Assembly (NCBI RefSeq): GCF_003663885.1
Contig: NZ_RCCE01000002.1
Coordinates: 372,001 to 436,000 of the forward strand
Origin: Litoreibacter meonggei
Lineage (GTDB): Bacteria; Pseudomonadota; Alphaproteobacteria; Rhodobacterales; Rhodobacteraceae
Direction of reading: 5' to 3'
Length of the DNA: 64,000 nt
A program made the position numbers and the translations under genes. Shown here piece after piece: positions 21,831-55,574 of the stretch; position 1 is the stretch's first letter; each line of letters begins with the position of its first letter. The notes below the pieces were generated by a model, which did not search any database, was not told where the DNA came from, and was given only the letters and a program-made list of their open reading frames with translations.

Positions 21831-21843
21831 GGCCTAACGTATG

Positions 21844-21885: not shown

Positions 21886-21900
21886 CAGCGAGGCCCGGAC

Positions 21901-28270: not shown

Positions 28271-29851
28271 TTAGTTGCAGCGCTGAGCATACACCGAGCA
28301 AAATTTACAGCCTCGGGTTTTGCGCCAAAACTCGCCGCTGTCGCCAATTCTACATTGTGAGGTTGCACACTGCTTATTGGCCTCACAGAACTGCGACTGT
28401 TTAGCTGCTGGCTTTGAAGGCGACTTGGGTTTCGCGGCAGTCGGCTTGGGTGCAGCAACCTTGGGTCGCGCAACAGCTTTGGTTCTGGTTGGTGTCGCAT
28501 TTTTGCGCGATGCGCGGGCGGTCTGTTTGGAGCGCCAAGTCGTCAAGTCAGCATCTGTTACTTGGTCTCGCAACGCGGACAGCACGGCCCGAGTGGCCTG
28601 CCCTGTTACCGGCAGTTTCTTGGCCTTTTCGTAATCGCGGATTGCGGCTTCGGTGCGCCGGCCAGCAATGCCATCTGCTGGCCCCAATGCGTGTCCAAGT
28701 GCCGACAGGCGTTCTTGTAGTTCGACCATTTCACTGCGGGTAAACCCATCTTCAATATCTGGTTCTGAAACGGTGTTGTCACGAGCGACCTTGGCGGGAG
28801 GGTCCCGCAGTTGCGGTACAGTCCCACCTGCCTGTTTGATCCGTGCGCGGGCCAGTTCAGCAAAGAACCCGTCGGGGTATATCTCCAGATAAGTTTGCAA
28901 ATCCGATGTCTGAAAACTATCTGAAATGGACTTCCAAAAGACGATTTCGCCGGCACTTGCATTTGGAACGTCTTCTATAGCGCGGTCGGTCACAATAAAT
29001 TCAGGCGCAACGGGTGAAAGGCTGCGGGTGTCGTTCAGGAAAATCTGTTCCGCCGGCAAAGCCCCGTATACGGCTGGCTCTTGTAGACCACCGGTTAACT
29101 GAAGGACATCCTCGCGGACCTTACGCATCATCAAGCCAACTTCGAGATTGGGCTGGCCTAGAGCCGCGACAAGGGCGTTGGCGTAGGGGCTGTTTCGACC
29201 CGTTCCGTCGGCAGCAGTCGTGCCTTCCTTTGCCGCAAAGGCGACAAGCGTATTTTTTGTTGGTTCGACGGATGATAATCCGTGGCCAATTGACCGACTT
29301 GCGGTGCTCCTGCTCATAGACGCGGCAAATGGATTATTGCGACAAGCATCAACGATGACCATGCTCAGTTGCTTTGCGCCGCTGGCAGAAAATATCATAG
29401 TTTCAAGCTTCACAGCTTCGAAATTGACGTCCGAGTCTGTTTCCAGCACAGCATCCACCGGAAGGAGATAATTCTGGCGATCAATCTCGATGCCGTGGCC
29501 CGCGAAGTAAACGAGGGCAATCTCGGCTCTGCTGGCGCGGCGCCGGAAATCACGCAGCGTATTGAGCATTGATCCTTGTGTTTGATCAGTATGAAGCAAT
29601 ACCTCAAACCCCACCGCGGTGAGCGCGGCTGCCAAGTCTGCCGAGTCATTGGGAGGGTTTTTAAGTTCTGCTACATTTTCATAAGCCCCGTTTCCAATGA
29701 CCAGTGCAACGCGTTCCACCCCGCTCTCCTGCGCTTGGAGCGGGGACATCAATAGCAGTGTCGAAGTAGCGATCAGAAGCACCCGGGCGAACAAGTTCCA
29801 AATGTTGGCAGGCGACGTCGCTTCCAATCTCAGGGCTAAACTGTTCATCAT
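28271..29851 (-). CDS. Secreted caspase-like (C14) protein with peptidoglycan-binding-type domain
   Basis: A 526-residue protein with an N-terminal hydrophobic export signal (about residues 20-41). The caspase-like domain (about 45-270) opens VALVIGNGAYENV and has the His/Cys dyad at His119 (YFAGHG) and Cys170 (DACRNNP). A short repeat (FWKSISDSFQTSDLQTYLEI) near 310-340 is followed by a PG_binding_1-like domain (about 370-430, LQERLSALGHALGPADG), an Ala/Lys/Pro-rich linker, and a Cys-rich tail with seven cysteines in the last 40 residues. Such metacaspase-like proteins (orthocaspases) usually cleave after Arg or Lys; their role is unclear. No strong Shine-Dalgarno is visible. It converges on the RTX-like gene with 11 bases between stops. 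Confidence 0.8.
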   Translation of the reverse strand: MMNSLALRLEATSPANIWNLFARVLLIATSTLLLMSPLQAQESGVERVALVIGNGAYENVAELKNPPNDSADLAAALTAVGFEVLLHTDQTQGSMLNTLRDFRRRASRAEIALVYFAGHGIEIDRQNYLLPVDAVLETDSDVNFEAVKLETMIFSASGAKQLSMVIVDACRNNPFAASMSRSTASRSIGHGLSSVEPTKNTLVAFAAKEGTTAADGTGRNSPYANALVAALGQPNLEVGLMMRKVREDVLQLTGGLQEPAVYGALPAEQIFLNDTRSLSPVAPEFIVTDRAIEDVPNASAGEIVFWKSISDSFQTSDLQTYLEIYPDGFFAELARARIKQAGGTVPQLRDPPAKVARDNTVSEPDIEDGFTRSEMVELQERLSALGHALGPADGIAGRRTEAAIRDYEKAKKLPVTGQATRAVLSALRDQVTDADLTTWRSKQTARASRKNATPTRTKAVARPKVAAPKPTAAKPKSPSKPAAKQSQFCEANKQCATSQCRIGDSGEFWRKTRGCKFCSVYAQRCN

Positions 29852-39902: not shown

Positions 39903-41042
39903 TTACTGAAACGTTTCAGGGAAAAAGAACGTCTGGGCCGGGACGCTCAATCCTGGTTGGCCGCTGGGGGTGTCGGCTGCAAGAACGATACCGGCGTCCG
40001 CGTCAGTTGAGAACCAGAAATGGAGATCCCAAAGGCGTGGATGCCAAACAGCTGGGAGCACCGACACGGGGTTATCAACTTGGGGTGCAGGATCCGGCTG
40101 ATAGGGCGGGCTTCCGGGGATTTGGGCCGGTGTGTTCGGCCCGCCGGGCAATGCGATAGGCGTTTGCCCCGGCACGCTCTCGTTTGGTGCTGTGCGGTGA
40201 AACCCGCCGTCTCGCAGATGATAGCCTGCTTCGTGCAAAAACCAGTTCTCCGACGGGATACACCCCATTCGTGGACGGCGTTGGGCATTGATGTGAAGCG
40301 CGCCATATGCGGCACCAATCAACGTGTAAGGCTCATCGGAGGTCGCGTCGGTGATATCGACCACATCATTTGATTGCGGCGAATATAGCAGCAAGGCAGG
40401 TACACCCGGCTGGATATTATTGTAGCGGGCGTCATGAACTTTCAACGCGGTCTGAGCAACAGTCGCCGTGTGTGAATAGGGAACCCCCTGCCCTTCCAAC
40501 GAAACCGGCCCCAAATGCGCAGGAGAAAGCGCGTAAGCGGGATGGATGTTTTGGCCGCTTTGTTGCCGTAGCAACGTCATGGTCTGAAACACTTGGGCCA
40601 ACGTCGCCTCGATTGACGCGTCCGAGCAAGCCACGATGCGCCTGTGCGGCTCGCGCGTGTTTGGGACAGAATAGGCAGTACGGGTCTCATCACTACCTTG
40701 CTTGCGATACTTTACGCCCCAGACATAGAACAGTGAATCTGCTTTCCAGAAAGTCGGTGCCTCCGTTACCAAAGCCCGCCAAGCCCCAGCTTGTGATCCG
40801 GCTTCAACCTGCTCTGCCTCAACGCGATTGGCAGCCGTCATATCGGGCCAATAATGTCGCGCGTAGCTTACCCAGACCTCCTCGATGATAAAGTCGTCAT
40901 CCACGACAAGTGTCGCGTTAAAATACTGCGTATTGTCTTCCCAATTCTGTGTTTCGTCAGCAACAAGAACGGGGGCAGAACACCCTGAGACAAAAATAAC
41001 CACAGCACAGATTAAAAAGTGAAAAACTTGGAACTTTGACAT
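39903..41042 (-). CDS. Predicted lipoprotein of unknown function
   Basis: A 379-residue protein starting MSKFQVFHFLICAVVIFVSG with a cysteine next, so a type II signal with lipobox VSGC: it should be lipid-anchored. I start at 41042, where GAGGAG lies seven bases upstream, rather than at the earlier in-frame ATG. The mature part has several Trp-rich segments (WVSYARHYWPDM, SLFYVWGVKYRKQG), ENWFLHEAGYHLRDGGFH, a Pro-rich stretch near residues 315-345, and the ending LHFWFSTDADAGIVLAAD. I do not recognise the family. It is divergent from the giant-protein operon at 41342 and may be part of the same module. Confidence 0.7.
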   Translation of the reverse strand: MSKFQVFHFLICAVVIFVSGCSAPVLVADETQNWEDNTQYFNATLVVDDDFIIEEVWVSYARHYWPDMTAANRVEAEQVEAGSQAGAWRALVTEAPTFWKADSLFYVWGVKYRKQGSDETRTAYSVPNTREPHRRIVACSDASIEATLAQVFQTMTLLRQQSGQNIHPAYALSPAHLGPVSLEGQGVPYSHTATVAQTALKVHDARYNNIQPGVPALLLYSPQSNDVVDITDATSDEPYTLIGAAYGALHINAQRRPRMGCIPSENWFLHEAGYHLRDGGFHRTAPNESVPGQTPIALPGGPNTPAQIPGSPPYQPDPAPQVDNPVSVLPAVWHPRLWDLHFWFSTDADAGIVLAADTPSGQPGLSVPAQTFFFPETFQ

Positions 41043-41341
41043 GAATTGGCTCCTCAAATATTCAAGTAGCATATCACGTTTGGCGCTCCGCGTTTCAGAG
41101 TTCTCAAAAACGTCAATCTTCAAAATAATGGCGCCGCAGCTCACCAAATTCTGGAGAAGACTCGACCGAAAGGATCATTTAATCTCGCTGTCGCTTCATA
41201 GATTTAGCGCAAGGCCAAGACTTTGCTTGCTAATCCAAGGCATCAGCGGAAAATGGCTTACCTAGCGTAAACCATTAGCTGGAATCGGCTCACCCGTGTA
41301 TTCTAATCCCTATATTAAAAACAATTTTATGGGTGCTTGCT
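41043..41341. promoter_or_regulatory. 299-base divergent gap between lipoprotein and giant-protein genes
   Basis: It contains no credible gene. It is more AT-rich than the flanks, particularly at 41290-41330, just before the giant operon. It should hold both promoters, which would allow the lipoprotein and the two giant proteins to share control. Confidence 0.45.
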
Positions 41342-44300
41342 ATGGCAATAAGACCCACCTTCCGCTCGCTTTCCGGGCTGTCTATTGGTTCAGAATTACC
41401 GATCCGTGCCGTCACGTCGACAGGTGCAATAATTGCAGCAGCGGAAGCAAATTTTGGCGACCTTTTCAAATTCCCATTTAAACCAGACGTGATCAAAAAT
41501 ATTTTCGAACCTTCACGACTGGGCGACTCCGTGTTGCGCGTGGATGATCTTTTGGCGATCCGAATAGAGTTACGGAATTGCGATATTAATCCCGGACCGC
41601 CGCCGGTAATTCGCAAGAATGCCCGCGGTGCCGGTCGGTTAATTTTACACTTTCCTCCGCAAGCAATTACCGAAGAAACATTTTTTGAAAGGCCACCGCC
41701 GGGGATAAGTGACCCTAAAGAGGGGGATCCGGACCATCCTGCTCATAGGGGGGAAGACAAACCCGAACCGGGAAGCGGGGATGATAATCTGCGCGAACCC
41801 CCAATCCGAGCCCGGATTGCCGATGAATCGCGCTTGGTCTTCGACGTACCTGCAGACCTCGATATTGAGTACTCTCTGAAAGGCGTTCTAACGGCGGTTC
41901 AGGATTTGAAACCCGTGGTCGCGGCCAATGCCAAGGCGAATGTGAAGCCTGGAAAATTCATCAAAGTCAAAGATTTGCTGAATGTCGCGGCACTAAATGC
42001 GATGTCGATAAAATCCAGAGCGGCCTTGTCATCGCATGTTGCTTCGTCTGTGCGGCTGGCCGCTCAAGGCAACCGGATGTCCACGATCCGAATGCGTCAG
42101 TCGACCAGCAATACCAAAGCGCTAAACCGCATTACTGACCGATCCATATTGGATGCCGGGATCAGCATTCGAACAGGGCCAAAGCCGCGCAACCCGTCGC
42201 AAACACAAACAGCAATTGAAATCCCGTGGCGGCTGATCCTGTCACCTCATACCGGCGCGCGCTGGCGGCACGCGACCGATCCGGCGCACTCCACGGCCAC
42301 CAATCACACGGAACTGTGGCATACCCGCATGGTCACACCCCATAGCGACGGCACCGAAGTTATGCCCCCCTATGAGGACCCCAATCGCACGGTACGGGCG
42401 ATCTGGGCAAAGAGCGGAAGCGGCTTGGAGCAGGCCAATCCGGTAATGACGAGCGATATGCCGGGCAGTTCCGACGACTTGCCAGCGCCAAATACGGTGC
42501 CGTTCCGCCAACCGCTCGATGATTTTGACCGCTTCCAGATCGCGCATCTGTCGTCAAATTTCTCGGTGAGCAATTACAAACCGGAGCCGATCGACACGAA
42601 GACCCTGATGCTATCGTCTCTGGGGGGGTGGTTGGACAGCCGCGGCTCATGGGATCCACTTGGCATCTCGGTGGAGGAATGGGTGCATCGCGCGTCCATG
42701 GCTCGCGACCACTACGTCAAAGTAGTCTATCGCGGCTTTCTGGCACCGTTCGGTCATCGCGTTTCATTGGTCAAAGTGTCCGAACGAAAATTCCACAAAG
42801 ACACCGACGGCAAATCGCCCGATCTAAGCCAACACGCCTATATCCGTCAGCGGTTCTTTATCGTGATCCGCGAACATCGCCGCGCGTTTGACGATGATGC
42901 GTTTCAGGCCACCAGCAGCGTTGATGGAAGCGTCAACTACGCGCGGCAATTCCCATTTGCCGAAGTCGAGATACTGACCGACAAAACGCCTGACCTAGAC
43001 CTGCCAAGCGATACTGAGATTAACGGCAAAGGACAGCTGTTTTTCTGGCCACATGTCGGCGATCAGCCGTTCATGTTCCAATGCGCCGCAACCGATCTGG
43101 ACGGGCGGAGAGTCCAGTTCGAGCTGCCGATGATCTTTATGGACAACTCAATGGCCTGTCCGCGTACATTAAGCGGTGACAAGTTGATACCCGCTTGGGA
43201 TTTGGCGCAAAACAACGCCGCCGATGCGGCCACCGAATACAACGCCAATGGCGCGTTCAATTCGGTTGATTTCGGGTTTCAGAAGCTGTCGATGGCGACC
43301 ACGTCCAAGCCCGGCGACACTGCAGTCGACGCCAAGGAAGTTATCTTTAACGTCGAGGCGCCAGAACGTCCAAGCCCGGGAAGTGATGCGACCAATAACC
43401 CGACGCTGCGCAGTTATAGCGCCGATCTGACCCGACCACTTTTCGTCCCCAAGCTGTTTCAGGTAGAGGCCAAACTCGGGCCTGTCGCTCACCTCACTGG
43501 GTCGGCAAAGACCAACAAGTTACAATGGAACGGTCAGTACCTTCGTGTCGGGTTTAACACCGATATGGGCGCACCAGAAAACGACCGCAATATTGGCGAG
43601 GTGTTTGCGGATATCATTCAGACCGGCAGCACGATGGGAAAAATGGATTTCTCCTCTCAGGGGGACAAGTCCGGCGGGTTCATGCAACCGAACTTACGCC
43701 CGCTGGCATTGTCGCGGATGGCAGGGCCGGTCATGTCCGACGTCACCGAATTTGCCAAAGGCAAGCTTGAGGAAGGGGCGGGTTTCCCGACCTCACCCAG
43801 CGATCTGCCTTTGCCACTGCTGTTTGGCTGTATCCCGCTTGGTGATTTGATCGAAGCTGTGAGCAACATTGCCGGTGACGGCGAAAAAGTTCCGAAATTT
43901 GTGTCAGAAGCAGGTACGCAGGTCGAGACGTTCGTATCTACGCTGCTGCGCTTGTTTACCTTGGCGATTGACCTGCCCAAGGCCCCGCTCAGCACTGCGC
44001 AAGGTGCGCTGGAGCAGGTATTTGCGACGGTCGAGGACCTGGTTCAACAGGCTGGCGTCGTTGCCGATACCGCGCAGGATCTGATCGACCGGCTGAACGA
44101 GCTGAAAGCGCTGGTGCAATCGATCAAAGCCAAGATCGAAGCCGCCGCCAATGTGGATGTCGGGTCCATCGACACATCACCTGATTTCGCCGCCGCATTG
44201 GCCGAAATACCGGCTATTCAGACCAAGATCACTGAAGTCATCAACGTCCTTAATGGCCCCCTAGGCCAGCAGCTTCCAGCCAATATCCGCCAGCAAGTCA

Positions 44301-45673
44301 TTGCCCTGCTGAACGGGTTGAAAACACTTTTGGAAGCCGTGACAGACAGTGTGACGGTGTTCAATACCGGCAAGGACGTTTTTGCCAAACTTGATGCCAT
44401 TGTCGGCGATCCCGCGGTCTTGGCTGAACTGTTCGAAAATCCGGGCGATTTTGGCCAGAAACTGACGGAACTGGAAGCCACAATCGGGCCCTTCCGCACC
44501 GCCATAGGTGACTTCGATTTGTTGCCCGACGGCGTGCGCGCGCCAATTGTATCCGCACTTGCGGACTTTGAGGACGTGCTGGATATCGCCGCAGATTTAG
44601 CAAAGCTGTTGGAAATGCTGACCGGTGACGAGCTGACGATCCGGTTCGATTGGAATCCGGATATCGCCAGCTGGCCCAGTTCTGACCCGTTATTCCGTGC
44701 GAATGACAAGAAGGGACTTGTTGTTGCAGTCGAAGGCAAGGTCAAGAAAAACGGATCATCCAGCCCGCAAATCTCGGTCACCTGTTCGCTGCGCTCGTTT
44801 GATCTGGTCCTGATTGCGCCTGCGTCATTTATCGAGCTGAATTTTGACAAGATCAGCTTTTCCATCGACAGCAAAGCCAAGATGGATGTTGATGTCATGC
44901 TCAATGACATCAAGTTCGTCGGCCCGCTTAGTTTCGTCGAATCCCTGCGCGATTTGATCCCGCTGGATGGGTTCTCGGATCCGCCATATCTCGACATCAC
45001 CACCGAAGGCATCCACGCCGGATTCGACGTGTCGTTGCCAACAATTGCAGTGGGTGTTCTGAACATTTCCAACCTCAGCCTTGGGGCCGGATTCACGGTG
45101 CCGTTCATTGGCCAGCCGCTATCGGTGTCGTTCAATTTCTGCACCCGTGAACAGCCGTTCTGCCTGACTGTCTACATGTTCGGTGGTGGCGGTTTCTTTG
45201 GCATCACCATTGACCCGCACGGCGTGCAAATACTCGAAGCAGCGCTGGAATTTGGCGCGTCACTGTCGGTTGATTTTGGCGTTGCGTCAGGCGGCGTGGA
45301 AGTCATGGCGGGAATTTATTTCCGCATGGAACAGGACGAGGCCAGCCTAACCGGATATTTCCGCTTGGGGGGGCACGTTTCGGTTCTGGGGCTGATCTCA
45401 GCGTCGATCGAATTGTATCTGGAGCTGGAATACGAGTTTTCTTCCGGCAAATGTACAGGCCGCGCATCGCTGACCATTGAAGTGTCGGTTCTGTTCTTCT
45501 CCGGTTCTGTGACCATCGAATGTGAAAAGAAATTCGCAGGATCGAATGGCGATCCAAGCTTGCGCCAGATGATGGGGCTGAATTCCGAAATACCACTTGA
45601 GGACGAGTTGGCTGCGATCAACAGCCCCGATGTGGATTACGCGTGGCGCGACTACGTCGAGGCCTTCGGCTAA
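41342..45673 (+). CDS. Giant protein 1 of a two-gene operon, function unknown
   Basis: About 1443 residues, with no signal peptide. Residues 1-840 are mixed alpha/beta with no motif I recognise. Residues about 845-1095 are predicted to be strongly helical with heptad-like spacing (VEDLVQQAGVVADTAQDLID, LNELKALVQSIKAKIEAA), like a stalk. Residues about 1100-1420 are nearly all alternating beta strands, with FGGGGFFGITI, EFGASLSVDFGVASGG and ASIELYLELEYEF. This part faintly recalls DUF6603-type proteins. A GTG at 41333 is an alternative start; neither start has a strong Shine-Dalgarno. It is followed 14 bases later by the second giant gene. Structural, surface or binding roles are possible; no enzyme motif is visible. 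Confidence 0.75.
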   Translation: MAIRPTFRSLSGLSIGSELPIRAVTSTGAIIAAAEANFGDLFKFPFKPDVIKNIFEPSRLGDSVLRVDDLLAIRIELRNCDINPGPPPVIRKNARGAGRLILHFPPQAITEETFFERPPPGISDPKEGDPDHPAHRGEDKPEPGSGDDNLREPPIRARIADESRLVFDVPADLDIEYSLKGVLTAVQDLKPVVAANAKANVKPGKFIKVKDLLNVAALNAMSIKSRAALSSHVASSVRLAAQGNRMSTIRMRQSTSNTKALNRITDRSILDAGISIRTGPKPRNPSQTQTAIEIPWRLILSPHTGARWRHATDPAHSTATNHTELWHTRMVTPHSDGTEVMPPYEDPNRTVRAIWAKSGSGLEQANPVMTSDMPGSSDDLPAPNTVPFRQPLDDFDRFQIAHLSSNFSVSNYKPEPIDTKTLMLSSLGGWLDSRGSWDPLGISVEEWVHRASMARDHYVKVVYRGFLAPFGHRVSLVKVSERKFHKDTDGKSPDLSQHAYIRQRFFIVIREHRRAFDDDAFQATSSVDGSVNYARQFPFAEVEILTDKTPDLDLPSDTEINGKGQLFFWPHVGDQPFMFQCAATDLDGRRVQFELPMIFMDNSMACPRTLSGDKLIPAWDLAQNNAADAATEYNANGAFNSVDFGFQKLSMATTSKPGDTAVDAKEVIFNVEAPERPSPGSDATNNPTLRSYSADLTRPLFVPKLFQVEAKLGPVAHLTGSAKTNKLQWNGQYLRVGFNTDMGAPENDRNIGEVFADIIQTGSTMGKMDFSSQGDKSGGFMQPNLRPLALSRMAGPVMSDVTEFAKGKLEEGAGFPTSPSDLPLPLLFGCIPLGDLIEAVSNIAGDGEKVPKFVSEAGTQVETFVSTLLRLFTLAIDLPKAPLSTAQGALEQVFATVEDLVQQAGVVADTAQDLIDRLNELKALVQSIKAKIEAAANVDVGSIDTSPDFAAALAEIPAIQTKITEVINVLNGPLGQQLPANIRQQVIALLNGLKTLLEAVTDSVTVFNTGKDVFAKLDAIVGDPAVLAELFENPGDFGQKLTELEATIGPFRTAIGDFDLLPDGVRAPIVSALADFEDVLDIAADLAKLLEMLTGDELTIRFDWNPDIASWPSSDPLFRANDKKGLVVAVEGKVKKNGSSSPQISVTCSLRSFDLVLIAPASFIELNFDKISFSIDSKAKMDVDVMLNDIKFVGPLSFVESLRDLIPLDGFSDPPYLDITTEGIHAGFDVSLPTIAVGVLNISNLSLGAGFTVPFIGQPLSVSFNFCTREQPFCLTVYMFGGGGFFGITIDPHGVQILEAALEFGASLSVDFGVASGGVEVMAGIYFRMEQDEASLTGYFRLGGHVSVLGLISASIELYLELEYEFSSGKCTGRASLTIEVSVLFFSGSVTIECEKKFAGSNGDPSLRQMMGLNSEIPLEDELAAINSPDVDYAWRDYVEAFG

Positions 45674-45687
45674 CGAAAGGACGGACA

Positions 45688-48600
45688 ATGACAAAACAAC
45701 TTCTGGTCTGGACCGTCCTACCTTACGGACGTGTGACCGAGGGCGATCATCGCGGCAAATGGCGCGTGTCGATTGTGGTTTCACCACGACTGACACCGGA
45801 AGCGGCGGACGAACAACAGCTGGGTGCATTTGGCGAATGGCTGTCGTGGCCAGACACGTTGACACAAGCAAGTTTCGGGTTGCGCGTCGGAGCGCGGACA
45901 GGCGCGCTAACGGTAATTTCCAAGCCTGATCCAAATATCTGGTCACGCTTTTTCACGGATCAAACGCCAGTCGCGGGTTTCGTCTACAAGGACATGAGCA
46001 AGGTTAATCTGCATTCCTATGCGGTCCGTAACGTGCTTGCCTTCGCGCGGACGAACTATGCCAATCTGGCGGTGCAGTCCGGCGATGAACATCCCAAACT
46101 GTTGCCGTGGAAAGAGGCCGATACCGGCCTGCGCGGAATGCTGAGCGATATTGGCACCGCAACAGACAAATTTACAGTGAGCGACCGCGAAATCGAAGTC
46201 ATGCGCCCGGGCTTTTCACGGTTTCACGATGACGAGCGCAGGCTCAGTATCGAACGCAGCGTCTTTGGTGATAAATCGGTCTATGAAATGGATGTGGTGG
46301 CCCCCGGGGTCGAACGCGACGGGGTAGCGCCTAGCACCGTCGCGCGCGCGCCGCTGCGGGCGATGCCGCCGGATTGGAACGATCCGGCAGGTGGCGGTCC
46401 AGATGCTGCGTTGATGGGCCAGTTCAACTCCGAAGACGAGTATACCTTTTATCAGGCGGACCGGTTTTACCGGCGCAAACAGGCCAGCAAGGCCGAAAAG
46501 AAAAAGCTGCGCCCTGATTTCAAAGACATCCGACCATCACCTAAAGCACCGGACTATGATTTCCACCGCATTGTTGCGTCCTTGGGCGACTATGGCGCGT
46601 TGATGCGGCAACTGGGATTGGTGATCGATTGCGTGATCGAAGACGACGCCCTGATCGAGGATATGATTGCCCCGGGCAGTGGCAATGGTGTTGGTCAGAT
46701 GCAATTGCAAATCAAGTGGCGTGGCGCCGCCCCTGGGGATGACGCGACCCCGCGCACGGCTTGGTACGCAGAGCAAGATCGCTTCGTTCCGCAGCCGCGC
46801 ACAATGGAGCATGCCGCAGGCATGTTGCGGCTGGAAGAAAGCGATGATGGCTGGCATTTGGCCAAGCAAAAAGACGGCGGCGGGCTGTTTGATATGTATC
46901 AGGTGGACCCTGATGGCGCGGCACTTAAAACGGTGAATTACACGCTCACGGCGCAAAACCTTGTCGGAAAAAGCCTGTCGCTTATGCAAGAACATGGCGA
47001 GGTAACCTACACCACGCCCGACCGCCAACCTGTCGCGGCACTACGCAGCTGTGGCATAGGGGTCTCGCAACACGGGCGGGCGCAGGAACTTGCAAAGCTC
47101 GCGGCGGCCGCGGATCTAAAAAATACTGAAATCGTCAACGGAAATGCCGAAAATGTCGTGCTGTTTGCCGAAGATATTCATCGCGGCTATCGCGTCGATA
47201 TCGCGGATGTTCCGGACCAGATACAGCCCGGAAAATGGCAAACGCTTTGCGCGCGCGACGGGGATTACCGGCTGATTGAAACCGATGAAGCGCTCAAATT
47301 TGAAGCGGATGAAGGGTATGTTTCGGGGTCTTCACTGGCTGGCGATCCAGACGACGCCGATACGCACTACATGCATGAAAGCCTGTTTCGCTGGAACGGT
47401 TGGAGCCTTGTGGCCCCCCGCCCCGGCAAGACGATCAAGTCTGAAACCAACGAGGACAATAACCTTCAGGCAGAGGGTCCGGCAGATGTTACCGACACGG
47501 CAGAAAACGGCAACGGGCTGGCGGTTACATTTCGAGCCGTCAAAGGCTCCCTGCCACGGCTTCGCTTCGGACACTTTTTTCGCGTAAGGGCGCGGATTGT
47601 CGATCTGGCCGGGAACTCTCTGGCGCTGGATGATGCATCTATCGAGCCGCTTGAGCACGCCAGTGAGCCCGTCGGCTATTGGCGGTTTGAGCCGGTTGAC
47701 CCACCAGCCGTGTTGCAACGCGAACGCCTCAGCGAAGGCGAACAGCTGGAGCGCATGGTGATCCGCTCGAACTTCAAACTTAAATCTGCCGACTATCTGC
47801 AAACACCGGACTTTGTCGCGGCGTCAAACGAAGACGCATCTCAGGACTTTGCCTACACAGAGGTCAACGAGCGGCATTTCGTTCCCCCCAAATCGTCTCA
47901 GCAGCAATGTGAAACCCACGGTCTTTTTGACCCGTTCTTTGGCGGTGATTGGGCTGACGCCAAGAAAGCCTATGAAATTGCGGCGCGTGAGGCCGGATCT
48001 TTGTATGACCATGTTCCCGGATCACAGATCAAACTGATCACGCCGACAGCGGTCAAAGATGCCGCGACAACGAGCATAGTGCCACCAGAACTGCCAAGTG
48101 AGACCAACCCGGTCGGCGACCGAATGGTTGGCGGGCAATATATTATCCACGCCGAAGCACATGTCGCTACGCCCTACCTGCCCGACGGGGCGGCTGGTGG
48201 GGTCGCTATTCGCGCCGTTCGAGGACACAAATTGCCCGGTGCTTTGCCGGGGATGATTTTAGGCGATCACTGCCGCGTGGTTGAACTGGACGATGAGCTT
48301 GTTCTGATGGTGCGCCATGGCGATGAATGGCCGCACAGCAAGGGTTTCCGGCTGATTTTGGCTGAGCGCGATGAGACCAATATCGACCTGCCTTGCAATG
48401 TGTCCTTCGACGATGGTGGTGAACCGGAATGGGACGAAGGTCGCCGCGAATTGACGCTGTTCCTTCCAAAGGGCCAGATTTTGCACTTGCGCTATGCCAG
48501 TTTTGTGCACCCCGAATTTGCCCATCATTTCGGAATTCCGCGCTGGAGCAACTCGGCGATGGCGGCGGATGCGGTGATGAAGTCATCAACCGTCGGCGCC

Positions 48601-50385
48601 CATTGGATGATCACGCCTTACCGCGGATTGACACTAGTGCATGCGACCCAGCAACCGGTCTGTTTGCCGAACATGACCAAGATGACTCCGCAGCGGGGAA
48701 AAGGCGACCAGAACGTGCGGTTAAGTTGCCGAGAAGTCGAGTTGCATGGCCCTTCAACCGGCAAGTTCGAGGTCGAAGCCACTTGGCGCGAATGGGTCGA
48801 CGATATCAACAGTGACCGTCCAGAACGCGTCGAGTTCAAAGGGCAGCTTGGTGAGGTCCGGCTTGCCGATAACCACATCAACCGTTTCCCACTATCGACT
48901 GCGGTGGACGACCAATTGGCCGACCCCGAAGCCGTGCGTGGCGACATCCATGAACTGGGCGACACCCGGTTCCGGCTGATCGAATACCGTATCCGCGCAA
49001 CAACGCGGTTTCGCGAATATCTGCCACCGGCCATGTATGACAAAACCGAACTAATATCGAGATTGGGTCCGGTCGCCATAGGCGAAAAATTTGCGCTACC
49101 CGCCGAGGATGATCCGGGCGCGCCGGTGTTGCGTGACGCAAACGGCTCGCGAAAGCAGTCGCTGGTCAAATCATCCGCAGCCCCGCGTGAACCGCGACTG
49201 CTGTATGTCCTGCCGACATTCCGGTGGACCCGCAACAACACCAGCACCAAACATGATGCCACGCGGGTCGGAAACGGGCTGCGCATCTGGCTTGACCGAC
49301 CTTGGTTCTCGTCCGGTGACGGCGAGTTACTGGGAATTATACTCCATAAAGAAGGTGGCAATCTCGCCAATATCCCCGAAGACATGGAACAACTCGTGAC
49401 CCAGTGGGGCACCGACCCGTTATGGGAAACAGCCACGCCCAAAAAGTCCATTCGGGAAAGCGATTTCGGTGCGAGTGTCGTCTCGGAAGACGTCAAGTTG
49501 CAAGAAAAACCCGACGCCCCAAAAGTGCGGATTGTGGGGCATCGCGTCCATTGGGATGACGACCGAAAGCTCTGGTATTGCGATGTCGAGTTGAACCCCG
49601 GGGCTACTTATATGCCGTTCGTGCGGCTGGCACTTGTCCGCTATCAACCCAACTCCATCGGGGGAACCAAAATCTCCAAGGTCGTGCTGGCAGAATTCGC
49701 GCAAGTCCTACCACGCAGACGCATCGTCGCGACCCCCAAAAACGCTACGCTAAAAGTGGCGTTGCATGGCCCCAATCCGATACGCGGACCGATCGAATTT
49801 ACCCGAGACTCGTCGTTTCAGAACGTATCCTTCGTCAATGGCCCCTTCGAGACGGGGCGCAATCGGGTCGAGATCGTACTGCAACAGCGTGATGACGGGA
49901 TCGACAGTGATCTGGGGTGGAAGGACGTCAAAGTCCTGCACCAGCATGTGGTCGGTGAAGACCCTGACGATGATGATGGGCCAACGATCAGACCCGTCGC
50001 GCGCGACCCCGGGCGGGTTGTATTGCGTCGCAGCGGCGGGAGTATCCGTTTGCCCAACATGGTCAACCGCGGCAATACCCCGACATTGCGCACCACGTCC
50101 AACCTGACGCGCGCGGGAGCCGCAGCGGTAAACTCGCTGGTCAAACGCGGCACCGGACTGACGGTGGGGGATATCGGTGCGTTGGATCCGTTTGTTACCG
50201 ATCCATCTTTCTGGGACGCCGATGTCAAAATTCCATCAGGCAGCGGTGCACGACGCATCGTCGTGCGAGAGTTCGAGCGATACTATTCGGACAACACCGC
50301 ATCGGAACAGGTCGGGACCACGACCTTCCCACGCCGGATCATTGAGGAACGGCTGGTGTTTGCAGATACGGTAACGATTGACTGA
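45688..50385 (+). CDS. Giant protein 2 of a two-gene operon, function unknown
   Basis: About 1565 residues, with no signal peptide. AAGGA precedes the ATG at 45688, which I prefer over upstream frame extension into giant gene 1. Landmarks are YTFYQADRFYRRKQ near residue 252, HESLFRWNGWSLVAPRPGK near 562, a beta-sandwich-like FRVRARIVDLAGNSLA near 631, LERMVIRSNF near 689, FGIPRWSNSAMAADAVM near 948, and an ending with VVREFERYYSD and RIIEERLVFADT. The protein looks beta-rich and multi-domain, like a structural or adhesive assembly. I believe similar unnamed giants occur in other bacteria, but I cannot name a family. Its 3' end converges on the Gfo/Idh gene at 50420. Confidence 0.75.
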   Translation: MTKQLLVWTVLPYGRVTEGDHRGKWRVSIVVSPRLTPEAADEQQLGAFGEWLSWPDTLTQASFGLRVGARTGALTVISKPDPNIWSRFFTDQTPVAGFVYKDMSKVNLHSYAVRNVLAFARTNYANLAVQSGDEHPKLLPWKEADTGLRGMLSDIGTATDKFTVSDREIEVMRPGFSRFHDDERRLSIERSVFGDKSVYEMDVVAPGVERDGVAPSTVARAPLRAMPPDWNDPAGGGPDAALMGQFNSEDEYTFYQADRFYRRKQASKAEKKKLRPDFKDIRPSPKAPDYDFHRIVASLGDYGALMRQLGLVIDCVIEDDALIEDMIAPGSGNGVGQMQLQIKWRGAAPGDDATPRTAWYAEQDRFVPQPRTMEHAAGMLRLEESDDGWHLAKQKDGGGLFDMYQVDPDGAALKTVNYTLTAQNLVGKSLSLMQEHGEVTYTTPDRQPVAALRSCGIGVSQHGRAQELAKLAAAADLKNTEIVNGNAENVVLFAEDIHRGYRVDIADVPDQIQPGKWQTLCARDGDYRLIETDEALKFEADEGYVSGSSLAGDPDDADTHYMHESLFRWNGWSLVAPRPGKTIKSETNEDNNLQAEGPADVTDTAENGNGLAVTFRAVKGSLPRLRFGHFFRVRARIVDLAGNSLALDDASIEPLEHASEPVGYWRFEPVDPPAVLQRERLSEGEQLERMVIRSNFKLKSADYLQTPDFVAASNEDASQDFAYTEVNERHFVPPKSSQQQCETHGLFDPFFGGDWADAKKAYEIAAREAGSLYDHVPGSQIKLITPTAVKDAATTSIVPPELPSETNPVGDRMVGGQYIIHAEAHVATPYLPDGAAGGVAIRAVRGHKLPGALPGMILGDHCRVVELDDELVLMVRHGDEWPHSKGFRLILAERDETNIDLPCNVSFDDGGEPEWDEGRRELTLFLPKGQILHLRYASFVHPEFAHHFGIPRWSNSAMAADAVMKSSTVGAHWMITPYRGLTLVHATQQPVCLPNMTKMTPQRGKGDQNVRLSCREVELHGPSTGKFEVEATWREWVDDINSDRPERVEFKGQLGEVRLADNHINRFPLSTAVDDQLADPEAVRGDIHELGDTRFRLIEYRIRATTRFREYLPPAMYDKTELISRLGPVAIGEKFALPAEDDPGAPVLRDANGSRKQSLVKSSAAPREPRLLYVLPTFRWTRNNTSTKHDATRVGNGLRIWLDRPWFSSGDGELLGIILHKEGGNLANIPEDMEQLVTQWGTDPLWETATPKKSIRESDFGASVVSEDVKLQEKPDAPKVRIVGHRVHWDDDRKLWYCDVELNPGATYMPFVRLALVRYQPNSIGGTKISKVVLAEFAQVLPRRRIVATPKNATLKVALHGPNPIRGPIEFTRDSSFQNVSFVNGPFETGRNRVEIVLQQRDDGIDSDLGWKDVKVLHQHVVGEDPDDDDGPTIRPVARDPGRVVLRRSGGSIRLPNMVNRGNTPTLRTTSNLTRAGAAAVNSLVKRGTGLTVGDIGALDPFVTDPSFWDADVKIPSGSGARRIVVREFERYYSDNTASEQVGTTTFPRRIIEERLVFADTVTID

Positions 50386-50419
50386 GGTTGAAGATCTGCG
50401 CTGATATCATGCCAAGCGC

Positions 50420-51445
50420 TTACGGCTGCCAGCCTTCATACAGAGCGTGGGTGCGTAACAGCGGCAACTGCTCTGGCCTGCCGGTCCGTTCCGAAGCATA
50501 TAGGGCGGTTACAAGTTCCACCGACGCACGGCCCTGCGCGAGGGTGACTGCATCTTCCCCTGTGGCAATGGCTTGCAAAAATCCCTGAAATCCCATGCGT
50601 GGCGCGGTAACTTCAGCCAGCGCTGACGTAATCGCTTCCGCTGAACTTGCGCGCGGCGTGATCGTCCATTCTGAAGCGGCAGGTGCGTAGGGCGACAGCC
50701 CGCTTTCGGCAGTGAACCCCTCGAACATCAACCGGATGCGCGAAGTGTCATCCCCTGCCCCTAGCGTGGCCGACGACGTAACCAACGCGCCGCTTTGCAT
50801 TGTGAAGGTAATCGCCGCGCAATCTTCGGTTTCAATGTCGTTCACCCGCGTCGCTAGCTGCGCGCTGACCTGTGCCAAGGGACCAAGCAGCAGGCAGATC
50901 AGATCGTGAGCATGAATGGCATGACCAAGGATCACGCCGCCCTGCTCCCCTGCCCAAGTACCGCGCCACGGGGCCGCGTAGTAGTCTGCATCACGCCGCC
51001 AATGTGTCTCAACCGAAGCAGCGAAAGCCTCGCCTGCCAGACCGCTCCGGATCAAGTGCAGAACCTGCGCGACACCCACGCCAAAGCGGTATTGGAACAC
51101 AGGATATACCGCGCGACCCGTCTTGGCAGCCACCTTTTCCAGCTTGTCGACGTCTGCAAGCGAGGTGGCGACTGGCTTTTCGCAGATCACGTCCTTGCCC
51201 GCCTCCATTGCGGCGATGGCTGTGGAGACATGCAAATGCGGTGGCAAACAAACGTCAATGATATCCACGTTGGAAGACAGGACTTTGGCCAAATCGGTTT
51301 CAACTGGAATACCGCCCGCGATGTCTTCCGCCCGCACGCGGTCCAGATCACAGATAGCGGCGACTTCAAAATGTTCAGGCAAAGCGCGGTAAGCACTTAG
51401 ATGTTCGCGGCCAATGCCTGCGCCGATGATCGCGACTTTACGCAT
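50420..51445 (-). CDS. Gfo/Idh/MocA-family oxidoreductase
   Basis: A 341-residue NAD(P)-dependent dehydrogenase. The Rossmann opening VAIIGAGIGREHLSAY and the family EKP motif (VICEKPVATS) are present, and the C-terminal alpha/beta substrate domain has HAIHAHDLICLLLG with the active-site His pair. Family members oxidise sugars, inositols or related alcohols. It is last of three consecutive Gfo/Idh genes and overlaps the preceding one by eight bases. Confidence 0.9.
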   Translation of the reverse strand: MRKVAIIGAGIGREHLSAYRALPEHFEVAAICDLDRVRAEDIAGGIPVETDLAKVLSSNVDIIDVCLPPHLHVSTAIAAMEAGKDVICEKPVATSLADVDKLEKVAAKTGRAVYPVFQYRFGVGVAQVLHLIRSGLAGEAFAASVETHWRRDADYYAAPWRGTWAGEQGGVILGHAIHAHDLICLLLGPLAQVSAQLATRVNDIETEDCAAITFTMQSGALVTSSATLGAGDDTSRIRLMFEGFTAESGLSPYAPAASEWTITPRASSAEAITSALAEVTAPRMGFQGFLQAIATGEDAVTLAQGRASVELVTALYASERTGRPEQLPLLRTHALYEGWQP

Positions 51446-52427
51446 CCGCCATCTCTTGTGCGCGCAGCGCCAACTCCATCACCTTGAAAGCGTGCGATTG
51501 CGGCATCGCGGTTTCAGAACGGTCGCGAATGTCGACCACCAGCCGGGCGAAATAGGGTAACCCCGCGTCGCGCGCGTCTATCTTTTCGCAGCGCGTACCA
51601 GTGGTCAGAAGTAAGTGATCGGTGCCGTCCGCTCCGCCCACATCCACATATTTGCGCAACTCAATAGTGCCTTCAGTACCGAGGATGGTAAGCCGCCCGT
51701 CGCCCCAAGTTGGCAACGCATCAGGGGTGAACCAGTCAACACGAATATAGCCGTGACCTTCTGGCGCGCGCAGGGCGATCTCCCCGAAATCCTGAAAGTC
51801 ACCACCGATGGAGATCGCAGTGGCCAACGTCACCTCTGCGTCTGAGGCCCCTGTAAAATATAAAAACTGATCGATCTGATGCGATGCAATATCTGTCAGA
51901 ATTCCGCCATTACGGGCAGGATCGAAGAACCAGTCGGGGCGCGTGGGGCGATTTAAACGGTGAGGGCCGAGGCCCACGGTTTGCACCACACGACCAATCG
52001 CGCCCGCCTGCACCAATTCGGCGGCGCGGGTAACGCAGGGCACTTCGAACCGCTCGGAGAAGTCGACCGACCAGATACGACCGGTACGGGCAACACAGTC
52101 TTTGACTGCATCAAGTTGAGCCAGTGTCGTGCAGCCCGGTTTATCGCTCATCACGTCTATTCCTGCATCCATCGCGCGGATCGCCAACGCGGCCCGGTCG
52201 CAAGGAATGGCCGAGATAATCACCATGTCCGGCTTGGCCTCTAGCACCGCATCAACAGTAGGAAACCTTGGCACATCGGGAAAGCGTTTGACGAAGCCGT
52301 CCAGTGGCTCCGGCGTTCCCTCCGTCCACCAACCGACACACTCCGCGCCTTGATCCTGCATATTGCCAAGCATCCCGTAGGCATGGCGGTGGTCGATGCC
52401 AAGGACGGCAATTCTCAGGTTAGACAT
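51438..52427 (-). CDS. Gfo/Idh/MocA-family oxidoreductase
   Basis: A 329-residue member with Rossmann opening IAVLGIDHRHAYGMLGNMQ, atypical because GxGxxG is replaced by GIDHRH. The EKP position reads DKPG (VMSDKPGCTT), keeping the lysine-proline core. The substrate domain has IASHQIDQFLYFTG. The weak nucleotide motif suggests changed cofactor binding or a specialised role. Overlaps on both sides (eight bases each) show it is cotranscribed with its two paralogues. Confidence 0.85.
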   Translation of the reverse strand: MSNLRIAVLGIDHRHAYGMLGNMQDQGAECVGWWTEGTPEPLDGFVKRFPDVPRFPTVDAVLEAKPDMVIISAIPCDRAALAIRAMDAGIDVMSDKPGCTTLAQLDAVKDCVARTGRIWSVDFSERFEVPCVTRAAELVQAGAIGRVVQTVGLGPHRLNRPTRPDWFFDPARNGGILTDIASHQIDQFLYFTGASDAEVTLATAISIGGDFQDFGEIALRAPEGHGYIRVDWFTPDALPTWGDGRLTILGTEGTIELRKYVDVGGADGTDHLLLTTGTRCEKIDARDAGLPYFARLVVDIRDRSETAMPQSHAFKVMELALRAQEMADA

Positions 52428-53436
52428 TTGGGACTTTCATTCTTTTGCCCTCCAGGGATGATTCCATTAACGCTTCGATAAGTGCATGTGTCTTGAGCGC
52501 GGCACGGCCCGTGACGAGTGGGGGGCGCCCCGTCTCAATTGCTTGCACAAAATCATCCAGCACGCCTTGGTGCCACGCGTGAGTAAACGCCATAGGATCC
52601 GCACCACCGCCGGTTGCCGCGTTTGCGCCATGGGTCTCCGTGCGTCCATCTTGCCAGTGGATGTGCAGTTCCCCAGATTTCAACCGCGCGGAGGCGTTGG
52701 TGCAATGCAGGGTTATGCTTTCCGCCCCACCGGGGAAACTGGCGGTGGTGGCAGTCAGTGTACCGACCGCGCCATTCGCAAAATCAAGCCCAGCGGCAAC
52801 CGTATCCTCGGCCTCCATCCGGTGCAGCTTGGTGGTGCGCGCCATAGCCTGCACTTGTGTCACGGGGCCGGTTAGTGACAGGGCCAGATCAAGCGTGTGG
52901 ATCGCCTGCGTGATCAACACGCCACCGCCGTCTTGTGCAATCGTGCCGCGTCCAGGAGTGTCGTAATACCCTTGGTCGCGCCACCACGGGACATTGATTT
53001 CGGCAAGCGCCAACTGCCCCAAGGTACCGTCAGCAATAAACTCAGCCAGCTTTCGCGATGCCTCCCGCATGCGGTGCTGGAAGACGATGCCTAGCGGCAG
53101 GCTCGCCCCTTCACAGTGCTCCACGATGGCGGTGGCCGCGGCAAGGCTACGCTCTACAGGTTTTTCCATCAGGATCGGTTTACCCGCCTGCACCAAAGCG
53201 TTGATAATCTCGGTGCGAGCATTTGGCGGCGTGGCGACAATGGCGAAGTCCAGATCGGGATCGGCGCAAGCTTCGGCCAAACTGACCGCGCTTATGCCAT
53301 GCTCTTCGGCATAGGCGACGGCGCGCTCCGGCCTGCGCGCGCAAACGGCGGTCAAGCGCGCGTGCGAGGACGCCTCCAGCGCCAGACGATGTGTGTCCGA
53401 CACCATGCCCACCCCGAACAATACGGCGTTTTTCAT
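52420..53436 (-). CDS. Gfo/Idh/MocA-family oxidoreductase
   Basis: A 338-residue member with Rossmann region VLFGVGMVSDTHRLALEAS, the EKP motif (ILMEKPVERS) and substrate-domain segment QAIHTLDLALSLTG. I start at 53436 because GGGAGGA lies four bases upstream of this ATG. It leads the three-gene Gfo/Idh block; 338 bases separate it from the EamA gene, so the block may have its own promoter. Confidence 0.9.
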   Translation of the reverse strand: MKNAVLFGVGMVSDTHRLALEASSHARLTAVCARRPERAVAYAEEHGISAVSLAEACADPDLDFAIVATPPNARTEIINALVQAGKPILMEKPVERSLAAATAIVEHCEGASLPLGIVFQHRMREASRKLAEFIADGTLGQLALAEINVPWWRDQGYYDTPGRGTIAQDGGGVLITQAIHTLDLALSLTGPVTQVQAMARTTKLHRMEAEDTVAAGLDFANGAVGTLTATTASFPGGAESITLHCTNASARLKSGELHIHWQDGRTETHGANAATGGGADPMAFTHAWHQGVLDDFVQAIETGRPPLVTGRAALKTHALIEALMESSLEGKRMKVPNV

Positions 53437-53774
53437 GCGATCCTCCCAGTCAGGTGGACCGTGCGCCAATCGTCGGGGAGGGTCAACGCCACAAGCCCCC
53501 GGGCTGGTGTGAAACCATCGAGGGTGGGCAAAAATGCTCTATTCGGAAGTAGTAAGGGTGGCGGCGCCGCCGAAGCGTGGTGTGCCCCCGGACAGGGTTT
53601 TACCCCCGCATCCCGTCCGGCTTTTGGCCGGATACGTATCGCGCGATTTGATCGGGTGCCCCGCTGCCCATGCTGGTCGCGACCGGCTGGCGGGATCCTG
53701 ATTAACCACTCTTGTGACGTCGAGAGGTGTTCTACGCCCCAGCCGTTGAGGCCGCGTTAACCAAGCGTGCGGTG
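53437..53774. other. 338-base GC-rich gap with hairpins, no gene recognised
   Basis: It holds a 12-base palindrome GGCGGCGCCGCC (53560-53571), a hairpin TCCGGC/GCCGGA (53616-53621 and 53627-53632) and several other GC-rich repeats. No coding frame with a ribosome binding site is convincing. It may hold a promoter for the Gfo/Idh block, a terminator for the EamA side, or a structured RNA; I could not match it to a known RNA. Confidence 0.4.
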
Positions 53775-54689
53775 CTACACGCCGGGCGGCGTGCGCAGAA
53801 TCGCGCGCTTGCGCGTGCGCACCCAGATCAGCAGGCCGGAGCCGATAATGATCGCCGCCCCGATCAGCGTCGCCGCGTCAGGGATGTGGCCCCAGATCAG
53901 GTAGCTGGAAATCGACAAGAACAGCAGGAAGAAATACGCGTAAGGCATCAGCGTGTTGGCCGTAGCAAAGCGATGTGCACGGGTCAGCAGCTCGTGACCT
54001 GCCCAGCCGAAAACGCCCAGCAGGACCAACAACACCCAGTCTAGCGCGGTGGTCGGATTGGTCCATGTCCAGATCGCCGTGGGCAACAAGACCACCGTGC
54101 CGAACAGCCCCATGTAGAACTGCATGATCTCGGTCGAGACCACCCCCGACAGCTTGCGGGTCAGGGTCGAATAGAGCGCCATCGCCACGGCGTTGTGGAA
54201 TGATAATAGCATCGCCCAATGGAACTCCGCCCCGAAAGGCCGCATCACCACCAACACACCGACAAAGCCCAGAAGGATGCCGAAGATGCGCCATGGCCCC
54301 GCCCGTTCGCCCAGCAACGGCCAACCCAGCAGGCACACCAATATCGGCGAGGTGAACATGATCGACGCGGTCACCGTCAGCGGCAGATAAATCAGGGCAA
54401 TGAAGTTGAGGGCAGTCGACGAGGTCAGCAGATAGGCCCGCAATAGCACCAACCCGAGCCGGTCTGTCTTGAACCGCTCCGCGTCCATGCCGCCGCGTGC
54501 CACCAGCCATGTGGAGATGACGAAATGCCCGACATAGCGCATGAAGGCCAGCTGCAACGCGGGCAGCCCCGCCAGCACCAACCACTTCACCGAGGTGTCG
54601 ATCATCGAGAAAAACAGCCACGCCGCCAGCATCATCCCGATGCCAAGGGTTGCGCGATCTTCCAGCGCTGGAACGGCGACGCGGCTCAT
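53775..54689 (-). CDS. DMT-superfamily (EamA) transporter
   Basis: A 304-residue membrane protein with about ten helices in two EamA repeats (first at LGIGMMLAAWLFFSMIDTSV, second from HWAMLLSFHNAVAMALYSTL). Members export or import small metabolites. It lies three bases after the dehydrogenase gene at 54693, so it is cotranscribed with the catabolic genes and may export an intermediate. Confidence 0.9.
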   Translation of the reverse strand: MSRVAVPALEDRATLGIGMMLAAWLFFSMIDTSVKWLVLAGLPALQLAFMRYVGHFVISTWLVARGGMDAERFKTDRLGLVLLRAYLLTSSTALNFIALIYLPLTVTASIMFTSPILVCLLGWPLLGERAGPWRIFGILLGFVGVLVVMRPFGAEFHWAMLLSFHNAVAMALYSTLTRKLSGVVSTEIMQFYMGLFGTVVLLPTAIWTWTNPTTALDWVLLVLLGVFGWAGHELLTRAHRFATANTLMPYAYFFLLFLSISSYLIWGHIPDAATLIGAAIIIGSGLLIWVRTRKRAILRTPPGV

Positions 54690-54692
54690 GTA

Positions 54693-55574
54693 TTACGGCT
54701 TCAGCTTGGCGGCGTAGAAGTCCACCATCTGGGAGACCATATCGTCTCCACGGCCCTCGTCGCGGGCGGTCTGCAACGCGCTCAAGGTGCTCTTCGACAT
54801 GATCGAATTCACCCCTGCGTCATCCGCCATCTTGGCATAATACCCCACATCCTTGGCCGCGTTCTTGATCGCGAAGGCCAGCTGGTTCGGGTCACCATCC
54901 ACGCCGTAGCCCTTGACGAAATCCATCATGCCGGACTGCAACGGCCCCGCGCTCATTACGTCATAAAGCGCCTTGCGGTCCACGCCCTGCACATCCGCCA
55001 TAGCGAACGCCTCGGCCATGGCATTGGCCACGGTCATGCCGAAGAAGTTGTTGATCAGCTTGATCGTGTGGCCCGAGCCAAGCGCGCCCAGATGGAAGAC
55101 GTTCTCGCCCAGATCGTCCAGCACGGGTTTGACCTTGTCGAACGCCGCCTTGTCGCCGGCGCACATGATATTGAGCAACCCGTCCTTGGCATGCGACGGC
55201 GTGCGGCCCAGGGGCGCGTCCAGATAGGCACCACCTGCGGCCGCGACCTCCACGCCCAAGGCTTTGGTCGAGGCGGGCAGCGAGGTGCCGAAATCAAGCA
55301 CCACCGCACCGGGTTTCAGCCCCGCGATCACACCGTCCGCCCCGTGCATCCGGCCCTCGACCTGATCCGACGTGCCCATGCACAGCATCACGATATCGCA
55401 GGCTTCCGCCACCTCCCGCGCGGTGCTCGCCTCGGTCGCACCACGGGCCATGGCCTGATCCACATAAGTGCGGTCGCGGTTGCCCAAGACGACCAGATCA
55501 TGGCCCTTGTCCTGCAAACGACCGACCATAGCGCCGCCCATAAGGCCAAGCCCGATAAATCCAATTTTACTCAT
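54693..55574 (-). CDS. 3-hydroxyisobutyrate dehydrogenase-family NAD(P) oxidoreductase
   Basis: A 293-residue beta-hydroxyacid dehydrogenase. The Rossmann motif GFIGLGLMGGAMVGRL and the catalytic-lysine region GHTIKLINNFFG are clear. The usual substrate loop DAPVSGG reads DAPLGRTP, which suggests a substrate other than hydroxyisobutyrate, such as a tartronate-semialdehyde or sugar-acid derivative. It overlaps the flavoenzyme gene by four bases (ATGA). Confidence 0.9.
   Translation of the reverse strand: MSKIGFIGLGLMGGAMVGRLQDKGHDLVVLGNRDRTYVDQAMARGATEASTAREVAEACDIVMLCMGTSDQVEGRMHGADGVIAGLKPGAVVLDFGTSLPASTKALGVEVAAAGGAYLDAPLGRTPSHAKDGLLNIMCAGDKAAFDKVKPVLDDLGENVFHLGALGSGHTIKLINNFFGMTVANAMAEAFAMADVQGVDRKALYDVMSAGPLQSGMMDFVKGYGVDGDPNQLAFAIKNAAKDVGYYAKMADDAGVNSIMSKSTLSALQTARDEGRGDDMVSQMVDFYAAKLKP

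Follow-up and report, generated by a model that had tools for sequence, protein, structure and literature searches.

An uncharacterised pair of giant genes in Litoreibacter meonggei, with twin-arginine signals in part of its relatives

Results

Two adjacent giant genes without a recognised domain

We analysed a stretch of 64,000 nucleotides of the Litoreibacter meonggei genome (contig NZ_RCCE01000002.1, positions 372,001 to 436,000; hereafter the window), in which two very long genes lie next to each other on the forward strand. Gene A (41342–45673) comprises 4332 bases and encodes 1443 amino acids, with an alternative GTG start at 41333. Gene B (45688–50385) comprises 4698 bases and encodes 1565 amino acids. 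The 14-base gap between them (45674–45687, forward strand) contains the motif AAAGGA (45676–45681), six bases 5' of the ATG of gene B. Both genes are backed by their open reading frames, their relatives and AlphaFold models (see below), and the reading frames confirm the sizes and the spacing given in a preliminary description made from the letters of the window.

That description had recognised no domain in either protein, and the library searches agree with it. Neither A nor B had a significant match in Pfam (E ≤ 1; best chance hit 0.034), PHROGs (best 0.14), NCBIfam (best 0.021, 14.7 bits against a cut-off of 200) or the PDB sequences (none for one of the two proteins, best 0.76 for the other), and the PADLOC anti-phage models gave zero matches. 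No nuclease, NTPase or toxin family was matched in Pfam, PHROGs or NCBIfam. A was absent from 50,697 phage records, and both proteins were absent from the IMG/VR viral collection, which was searched behind a pattern filter. A match to a characterised family, named beforehand as speaking against the claim, was thus looked for and none was found. Among the papers listed from an open-licence library, none had a title or abstract start describing the pair. Two suggested kinships did not hold: PF20248 (DUF6603) was matched neither by A or B nor at any other place in the window's genome, and A and B have no sequence match to known components of contractile injection systems or toxin complexes.

The earlier statement that signal peptides are absent agrees with simple pattern checks. 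Neither protein of the window contains a twin-arginine translocation (Tat) motif by a strict pattern test, and no strong hydrophobic stretch was found at the N-terminus of A. These results support the view that A and B form an uncharacterised coupled pair, most simply a structural or binding assembly. The absence of an enzyme signature in two coupled giant proteins agrees with the earlier proposal of such an assembly; its further suggestion, that the pair of the window makes a particle or sits at the surface, goes beyond these results. The Tat signals and adjacent tatA genes of relatives, the amphipathic sheet of A and the place of the pair on an insertion (all described below) had not been anticipated there. 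For the A–B pair, these searches gave no family model and no solved sequence relative.

A and B travel together and diverge in parallel

Relatives were collected with a profile of B (alignment A2) that was scanned against one genome per species; with the single B protein of the window as query, no relative was confirmed in genome contigs. The best 80 of 177 stretches encoding B relatives gave 77 loci, and in six of these a contig end cuts the locus so that the pairing is unreadable. In all 71 loci with room, A lies directly 5' of B on the same strand, which bears out the expectation that the two genes travel together in other genomes. The gap between them ranges from −19 to 103 bases over these loci, and its commonest length is 14 bases, as in the window. 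The stretches L001–L006 were dropped throughout, being sub-stretches of other loci.

The evolutionary distances of A and B over 71 loci were closely correlated (Pearson 0.976, Spearman 0.81), a value that includes shared species history. Loci L001–L006, L013, L018–L020 and L021 as well as short or cut rows were left out of this count. In each of eight close relative pairs, dN/dS was nearly equal for A and B; it was 0.05–0.13 in seven of them and 0.32–0.36 in one Streptomyces pair. A and B therefore diverge in parallel under purifying selection. Relatives reach up to 76% identity for A (residues 250–1443) and 72% for B (residues 286–1480), and plasmid relatives are 42–55% identical over at least 96% of the query. 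Because close relatives, plasmid relatives and low dN/dS values exist, A and B are more than chance open reading frames. Gly, Trp, Arg and Pro make up many of their invariant positions.

Two decayed copies of B outside the 77-locus set, L119 and L120, have no A; a transposase is annotated beside L120, and the letters spanning the beginning of L119 were read as encoding another. Disrupted copies occur as well. In G239 (L008/L009), A is split over two frames and a reverse-strand open reading frame lies between A and B, and in L020, B is split over two open reading frames. In Rhizobium ruizarguesonis TP23 (L013, 14839–19162), A is likewise split into two frames, and intact relatives exist. Taken together, obligate adjacency, parallel divergence and equal constraint argue that A and B are two subunits of one complex.

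A rare pair at the edge of an insertion beside tRNA-Gly

The pair is rare and widely scattered. Of the 295 genomes of the family, 3 carry A, and of the 21 genomes of the genus, 2 carry B; the B profile matched 5 of 398 genomes of the phylum. Each of these counts includes the genome of the window. Among the best 80 of 177 matches, the pair spans about ten phyla according to the record titles, many of which are labels of metagenome-assembled genomes (MAGs) taken as given. The titles name Pseudomonadota, Actinomycetota, Chlorobiota, Balneolales, Rhodothermaceae, Kapaibacterium, Aminicenantes, Acidobacteria, Myxococcales, Geobacter, Dehalococcoidia and candidate Zipacnadia. One MAG is labelled Oscillospiraceae (L056), and its B branches inside the proteobacterial clade, so that the label is possibly a binning error. 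Among PLSDB plasmids, 15 records carry A relatives and 14 carry B relatives, with five records each covered to at least 80%; six of the 15 plasmids with A are typed as conjugative.

In the window, the two genes lie at the distal edge of a 22.7-kb insertion (27680–50409), whose other edge is a tRNA-Gly gene detected by ARAGORN (27605–27679, reverse strand). In G299, a genome of the same genus, the counterparts of window positions 21807–27467, the tRNA-Gly and positions 50410–55475 align side by side, and only 85 bases separate the tRNA-Gly from the right flank; at this place the window has 22.7 kb. This empty site, in the one genome compared, indicates that the window carries an insertion next to tRNA-Gly, with A and B as its final genes. 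The GC content of the insertion (0.549 versus 0.615–0.629) and the rarity of the pair favour a gain of the 22.7 kb in the window over a loss in G299. Elsewhere, the pair adjoins a phage-type integrase (L028) or lies near TniB/Mu-type transposition genes (L007).

Contractile-injection or toxin-complex genes were not found in the insertion. At its tRNA-side edge lies a gene for a protein with a caspase domain (Peptidase_C14) and a peptidoglycan-binding domain (28271–29851, reverse strand). A lipoprotein-like gene of 414 amino acids without a Pfam match (39903–41147, reverse strand) is located between an ABC transporter and A; among the 21 genus genomes, it was found only in its own. A second stretch of low GC content (0.556) occupies positions 1–5700 at the left end of the window.

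Predicted structures of A and B

Residues 250–1443 of A were modelled with AlphaFold from 69 sequences (pLDDT 83.5, pTM 0.71). The model contains a beta region (about residues 417–760), then a helical bundle (about residues 860–1092; 43919–44617, forward strand) and finally C-terminal sheets (about residues 1097–1397; 44630–45532, forward strand), the last of which has a hydrophobic face and includes the motif FGGGGFFG. The C-terminal part begins with five main strands (1097–1192), continues as a mostly long-stranded sheet (about 1216–1397) and is followed by short low-confidence helices at the end of the model. The preliminary description of a helical part followed by a strand-rich, Gly-rich part is thus seen in the model, although it had omitted the beta region in front of the helices.

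The helical spacer varies greatly in length. It comprises 261 residues in the A of the window, against 771 in L007 and 1026 in L018; by other anchors it measures 271 residues in the window and goes down to 35 in L093. The last sheet is strongly two-faced in its 11 strands (1223–1397): one face has a mean hydropathy of +1.6 to +3.6, and the other has −0.2 to −2.4 in 10 of the 11, strand 1273–1277 being hydrophobic on both faces. The strands of the first beta part have no such regularity, in a comparison made within A only. It should be noted that amphipathic strands are common in soluble sheets.

When the model of A was compared with the PDB by Foldseek, microsomal triglyceride transfer protein (MTP) ranked first and second (E 1.4e-5 and 1.6e-5; TM 0.07 and rmsd 34 for the first), followed by vitellogenin in third place (3.6e-4), MTP again in fourth, and then porins; ApoB100 appeared at ranks 19 and 39. 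The lipid-transfer matches have TM scores of 0.07–0.10 (0.03–0.09 by target length) and an rmsd over 30, so that the likeness lies only in the order of the parts and in local shape. By VIA, the last sheet of A (961–1149 in the numbering of the model) aligns with the sheets of porins and FhaC (Z about 10–12.4), and ApoB (9bde; Z 9.4, rmsd 25) is the only lipid-transfer match among the 50 rows listed. At the sequence level, profile A3 compared with all PDB chains found no lipid-transfer protein among 59 sequences at E ≤ 5.

Several other matches of A were rejected. Matches of the helices to TTYH (Z 12.7) fall below the caution level of the tool for helical bundles, and profile-to-PDB hits on the helical part (helical bundles and coiled coils) were set aside as compositional. 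Matches to viral structures were also set aside: the best, phage tail proteins with E 1.0e-4, have a query TM of 0.06, and none exceeds 0.11.

B was modelled over residues 286–1480 from 76 sequences (pLDDT 84.8, pTM 0.74). The model is beta-rich and many Trp, Arg and Gly residues are invariant, in line with the beta-rich protein with Trp and Arg landmarks described beforehand. Its resemblance to FN3 tandems and arrestin-type sandwiches is weak: Foldseek matched it to the FN3 domains of PTPRM (E 2e-4), and VIA gave a Z of 6.2 at best. From the model, B is probably a chain of beta-sandwich domains of the FN3/Ig-like kind.

Twin-arginine signals and neighbouring tatA genes in relatives

A strict twin-arginine motif together with a hydrophobic stretch was detected in 28 of 81 full-length relatives of A; the other 53 lack the strict motif. 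As a control, the same test was applied to an earlier locus set, where it was positive in none of 80 B proteins and in 7 of 671 other open reading frames of at least 250 amino acids. The Pfam model TAT_signal gave hits below its cut-off only, in three of the five motif-bearing A proteins scanned. Earlier counts had been 29 of 76 with a looser pattern and 24 of 76 with the strict one, which misses L093; the looser-pattern hits in L012, L044, L059 and L097 look spurious. Loci L001–L006, L013, whose A is in two pieces, and L021, whose A is fragmented, were left out of the Tat counts, as were A proteins cut at the end of a stretch or shorter than 900 amino acids.

In five loci, a tatA gene lies beside the pair, always within 772 bases: Sinorhizobium meliloti pC, Ensifer adhaerens (a decayed copy), G577, a Zipacnadia MAG and Lentzea fradiae. 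Of these, the Ensifer hit alone does not depend on the tatA model, since the other four, found by a pattern search, served to build it; those four all pass the cut-off of Pfam PF02416. At E ≤ 1e-4, the model hit nothing else in 106 loci (2.33 Mb). With 10% of the flanking bases lying that near, the probability that five of five tatA genes fall within 800 bases by chance is about 1e-5, an estimate that assumes independent placement and uses a limit set after the hits had been seen. The genome of the window has its own TatA-type genes elsewhere.

The 28 Tat-type A proteins weigh 113–357 kDa, and A plus B 258–536 kDa, where B was counted from the start of the profile match, was cut or partial in L007 and L020, and was missing in L008. 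Reviews quote Tat cargo of up to 150 kDa (excerpt of PMC6708511), and PaoABC, with 135 kDa, was called one of the largest Tat-exported cargoes in 2014 (excerpt of PMC4273604).

In a quick, unrooted tree of B (96 rows), the window falls into a proteobacterial clade of 44 rows with an SH-aLRT of 100. Of its 39 scored rows, 38 are without a Tat motif, and the remaining one (L044) has a loose-pattern hit that falls before the likely start. An actinobacterial clade of nine rows as well as L017, L078, L084 and L121 are also without the motif. L101 and L102, which are the same locus as L028, were left out of the tree and mass counts. The Tat-bearing lineages surround the Tat-less ones, with five changes on the unrooted tree, for which long branches were warned of. 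We read this as a loss of the Tat signal in the clade of the window, on a tree that is unrooted.

Genes around the pair in other genomes

Clustering of the neighbouring genes gave no third gene shared across lineages that points to a pathway. Neighbour clusters present in 7 to 11 loci mostly reflect synteny within Saccharicenans/Aminicenantes or within Achromobacter; others are ubiquitous families such as ABC transporters. In L061, L062, L063, L065 and L089, a third gene whose product has a porin-like aromatic C-terminus lies directly 3' of B, and in four of these five loci a fourth, secreted-looking gene comes next. Two copies of the third gene had no Pfam or NCBIfam match, and a profile of its five rows had no significant match in the PDB.

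In a Geobacter MAG (L078, 13770–19820), the pair is followed by a phage tail-collar gene, with a similar-looking open reading frame immediately in front of it, and by a gene for a giant MBG/FN3 protein. Hints of a contractile or tail system are confined to this tail-collar gene and to the poor phage-tail fold matches of A (E 1.0e-4). Three long-type plasmid pairs (L020, L111 and L112) lie near DpdE/DpdF, HsdR-like, N-6 methylase, WYL and UvrD genes, and such pairs are possibly linked to defence islands.

Discussion

A possible large complex with a hydrophobic ligand

The reading that we prefer, tentatively and with a little less than even confidence, is that A and B form a large non-enzymatic complex with a hydrophobic ligand, which is exported by Tat in many lineages and cytosolic in the clade of the window. 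Its two obligate subunits would together amount to roughly 330 kDa here, as calculated from residue counts. A would contribute the beta part, a helical bundle of variable length and the C-terminal sheet with one hydrophobic face; B would contribute an array of beta-sandwiches, most likely packed on A. The hydrophobic face of A may be the wall of a site for a lipid or a similar ligand, with B acting as a shell or docking part.

The Tat signal on A and its absence from B suggest that, in the Tat lineages, the complex folds and is loaded in the cytoplasm and is then exported by Tat, B being carried along by A. A TatA from a neighbouring gene may sometimes help this export. In the clade of the window, the absence of the signal suggests that the complex most likely remains cytosolic or takes an unrecognised route. 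A greasy face on a folded protein that is either exported by Tat or kept in the cytosol must be covered, most simply by a hydrophobic ligand, by B or by both, and this need favours a complex with a hydrophobic ligand. From these features of the genes and models we infer the physical A–B complex, the co-export of B, the ligand and the Tat export of the relatives.

Comparison with known systems

The large lipid-transfer proteins (MTP, vitellogenin and apolipoprotein B), for which Vitellogenin_N is the family model, are laid out as beta part, helical part and sheets, in this order: an N-terminal barrel is followed by a superhelical domain and by two sheets that enclose a lipid cavity. A resembles them in the order of its parts, and they gave its best Foldseek E-values in the whole PDB. 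In contrast to them, A and B are bacterial and form an obligate two-gene pair, and the proteins of the window had no Pfam match to this family. An extension of the preferred reading, which seems to us rather doubtful, likens the pair to the large lipoproteins of animals: a giant carrier would fold around its hydrophobic cargo in the cytoplasm and, in many phyla, be pushed whole through Tat with B as a passenger. If it were true, A plus B would surpass the quoted 150 kDa of Tat cargo by a factor of about 1.7 to 3.6, the neighbouring tatA genes would be size adapters, and the clade of the window would have made the carrier cytosolic.

With the Tat hitchhikers, such as E. coli PaoABC and the hydrogenases, the pair shares the arrangement of one subunit with a Tat signal and a partner without it. 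It differs from them in that no cofactor or enzyme was recognised, in the tatA gene beside some pairs, and in mass, with 258–536 kDa for A plus B against 135 kDa for PaoABC (excerpt of PMC4273604). The long-stranded amphipathic sheet of A is similar in shape to that of porins, FhaC and CymA. However, A has large additional beta and helical parts and no Sec-like N-terminus, and its carriers include monoderm bacteria.

Alternative explanations

Two other readings place the pair on opposite sides of the membrane, and we consider each of them unlikely. As a surface or periplasmic adhesin or stalk, A would provide a stalk of variable length through its helices, and B a binding head. The range of the spacer in relatives (35 to 1026 residues, by different anchors), the FN3-like matches of B, the Tat signals and the porin-like third gene downstream in five loci labelled Balneolota, Rhodothermaceae or Chlorobiota all fit such a protein. 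On the other hand, the clade of the window has no recognised export signal, no anchor or sorting motif was noticed on inspection, the helices of A lead into a wide sheet and not into a terminal fibre, and B resembles FN3 domains weakly (Z no higher than 6.2). The missing signal would instead suit a cytoplasmic storage or scaffold particle, with the Tat signals elsewhere as a separate specialisation. Indeed, no strict Tat motif occurs in the scored rows of the 44-row clade, in the 9-row clade or in L017, L078, L084 and L121. Yet Tat signals across the other lineages and tatA genes in unrelated ones fit an exported origin better, on an unrooted tree.

A role as a conflict or anti-phage element on plasmids and islands would account for the patchy occurrence (3/295, 2/21 and 5/398 genomes, own genome included), for the insertion site and for the restriction or DNA-modification genes near some long-type plasmid pairs. 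We nevertheless regard it as improbable: PADLOC gave no match, no nuclease, NTPase or toxin family was matched, other loci lie among transport and metabolic genes, and most pairs are under strong purifying selection. Least probable, and disfavoured here, is the reading of A as an ordinary beta-barrel of the outer membrane whose plug is helical. Although VIA aligns its last sheet with the barrels of porins and FhaC (Z about 10–12.4), no Sec-like N-terminus was seen on A, Tat delivers folded proteins, A ends in short low-confidence helices and not in a barrel strand, and the carriers of relatives include Streptomyces and further monoderm Actinomycetota.

Implications

Under the preferred reading of an exported complex with a hydrophobic ligand, the Tat-type members would be natural cargo much larger than the sizes by which the limit of folded-protein transport is now set, and the neighbouring tatA genes offer a ready hypothesis for how such large cargo crosses the membrane. 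If A holds lipid, the pair would be a bacterial answer to a problem known mainly from animal lipoproteins. In either case, a nearly inseparable pair of giant genes extends from Rhodobacterales to Streptomyces and Aminicenantes and is nameless in the libraries searched.
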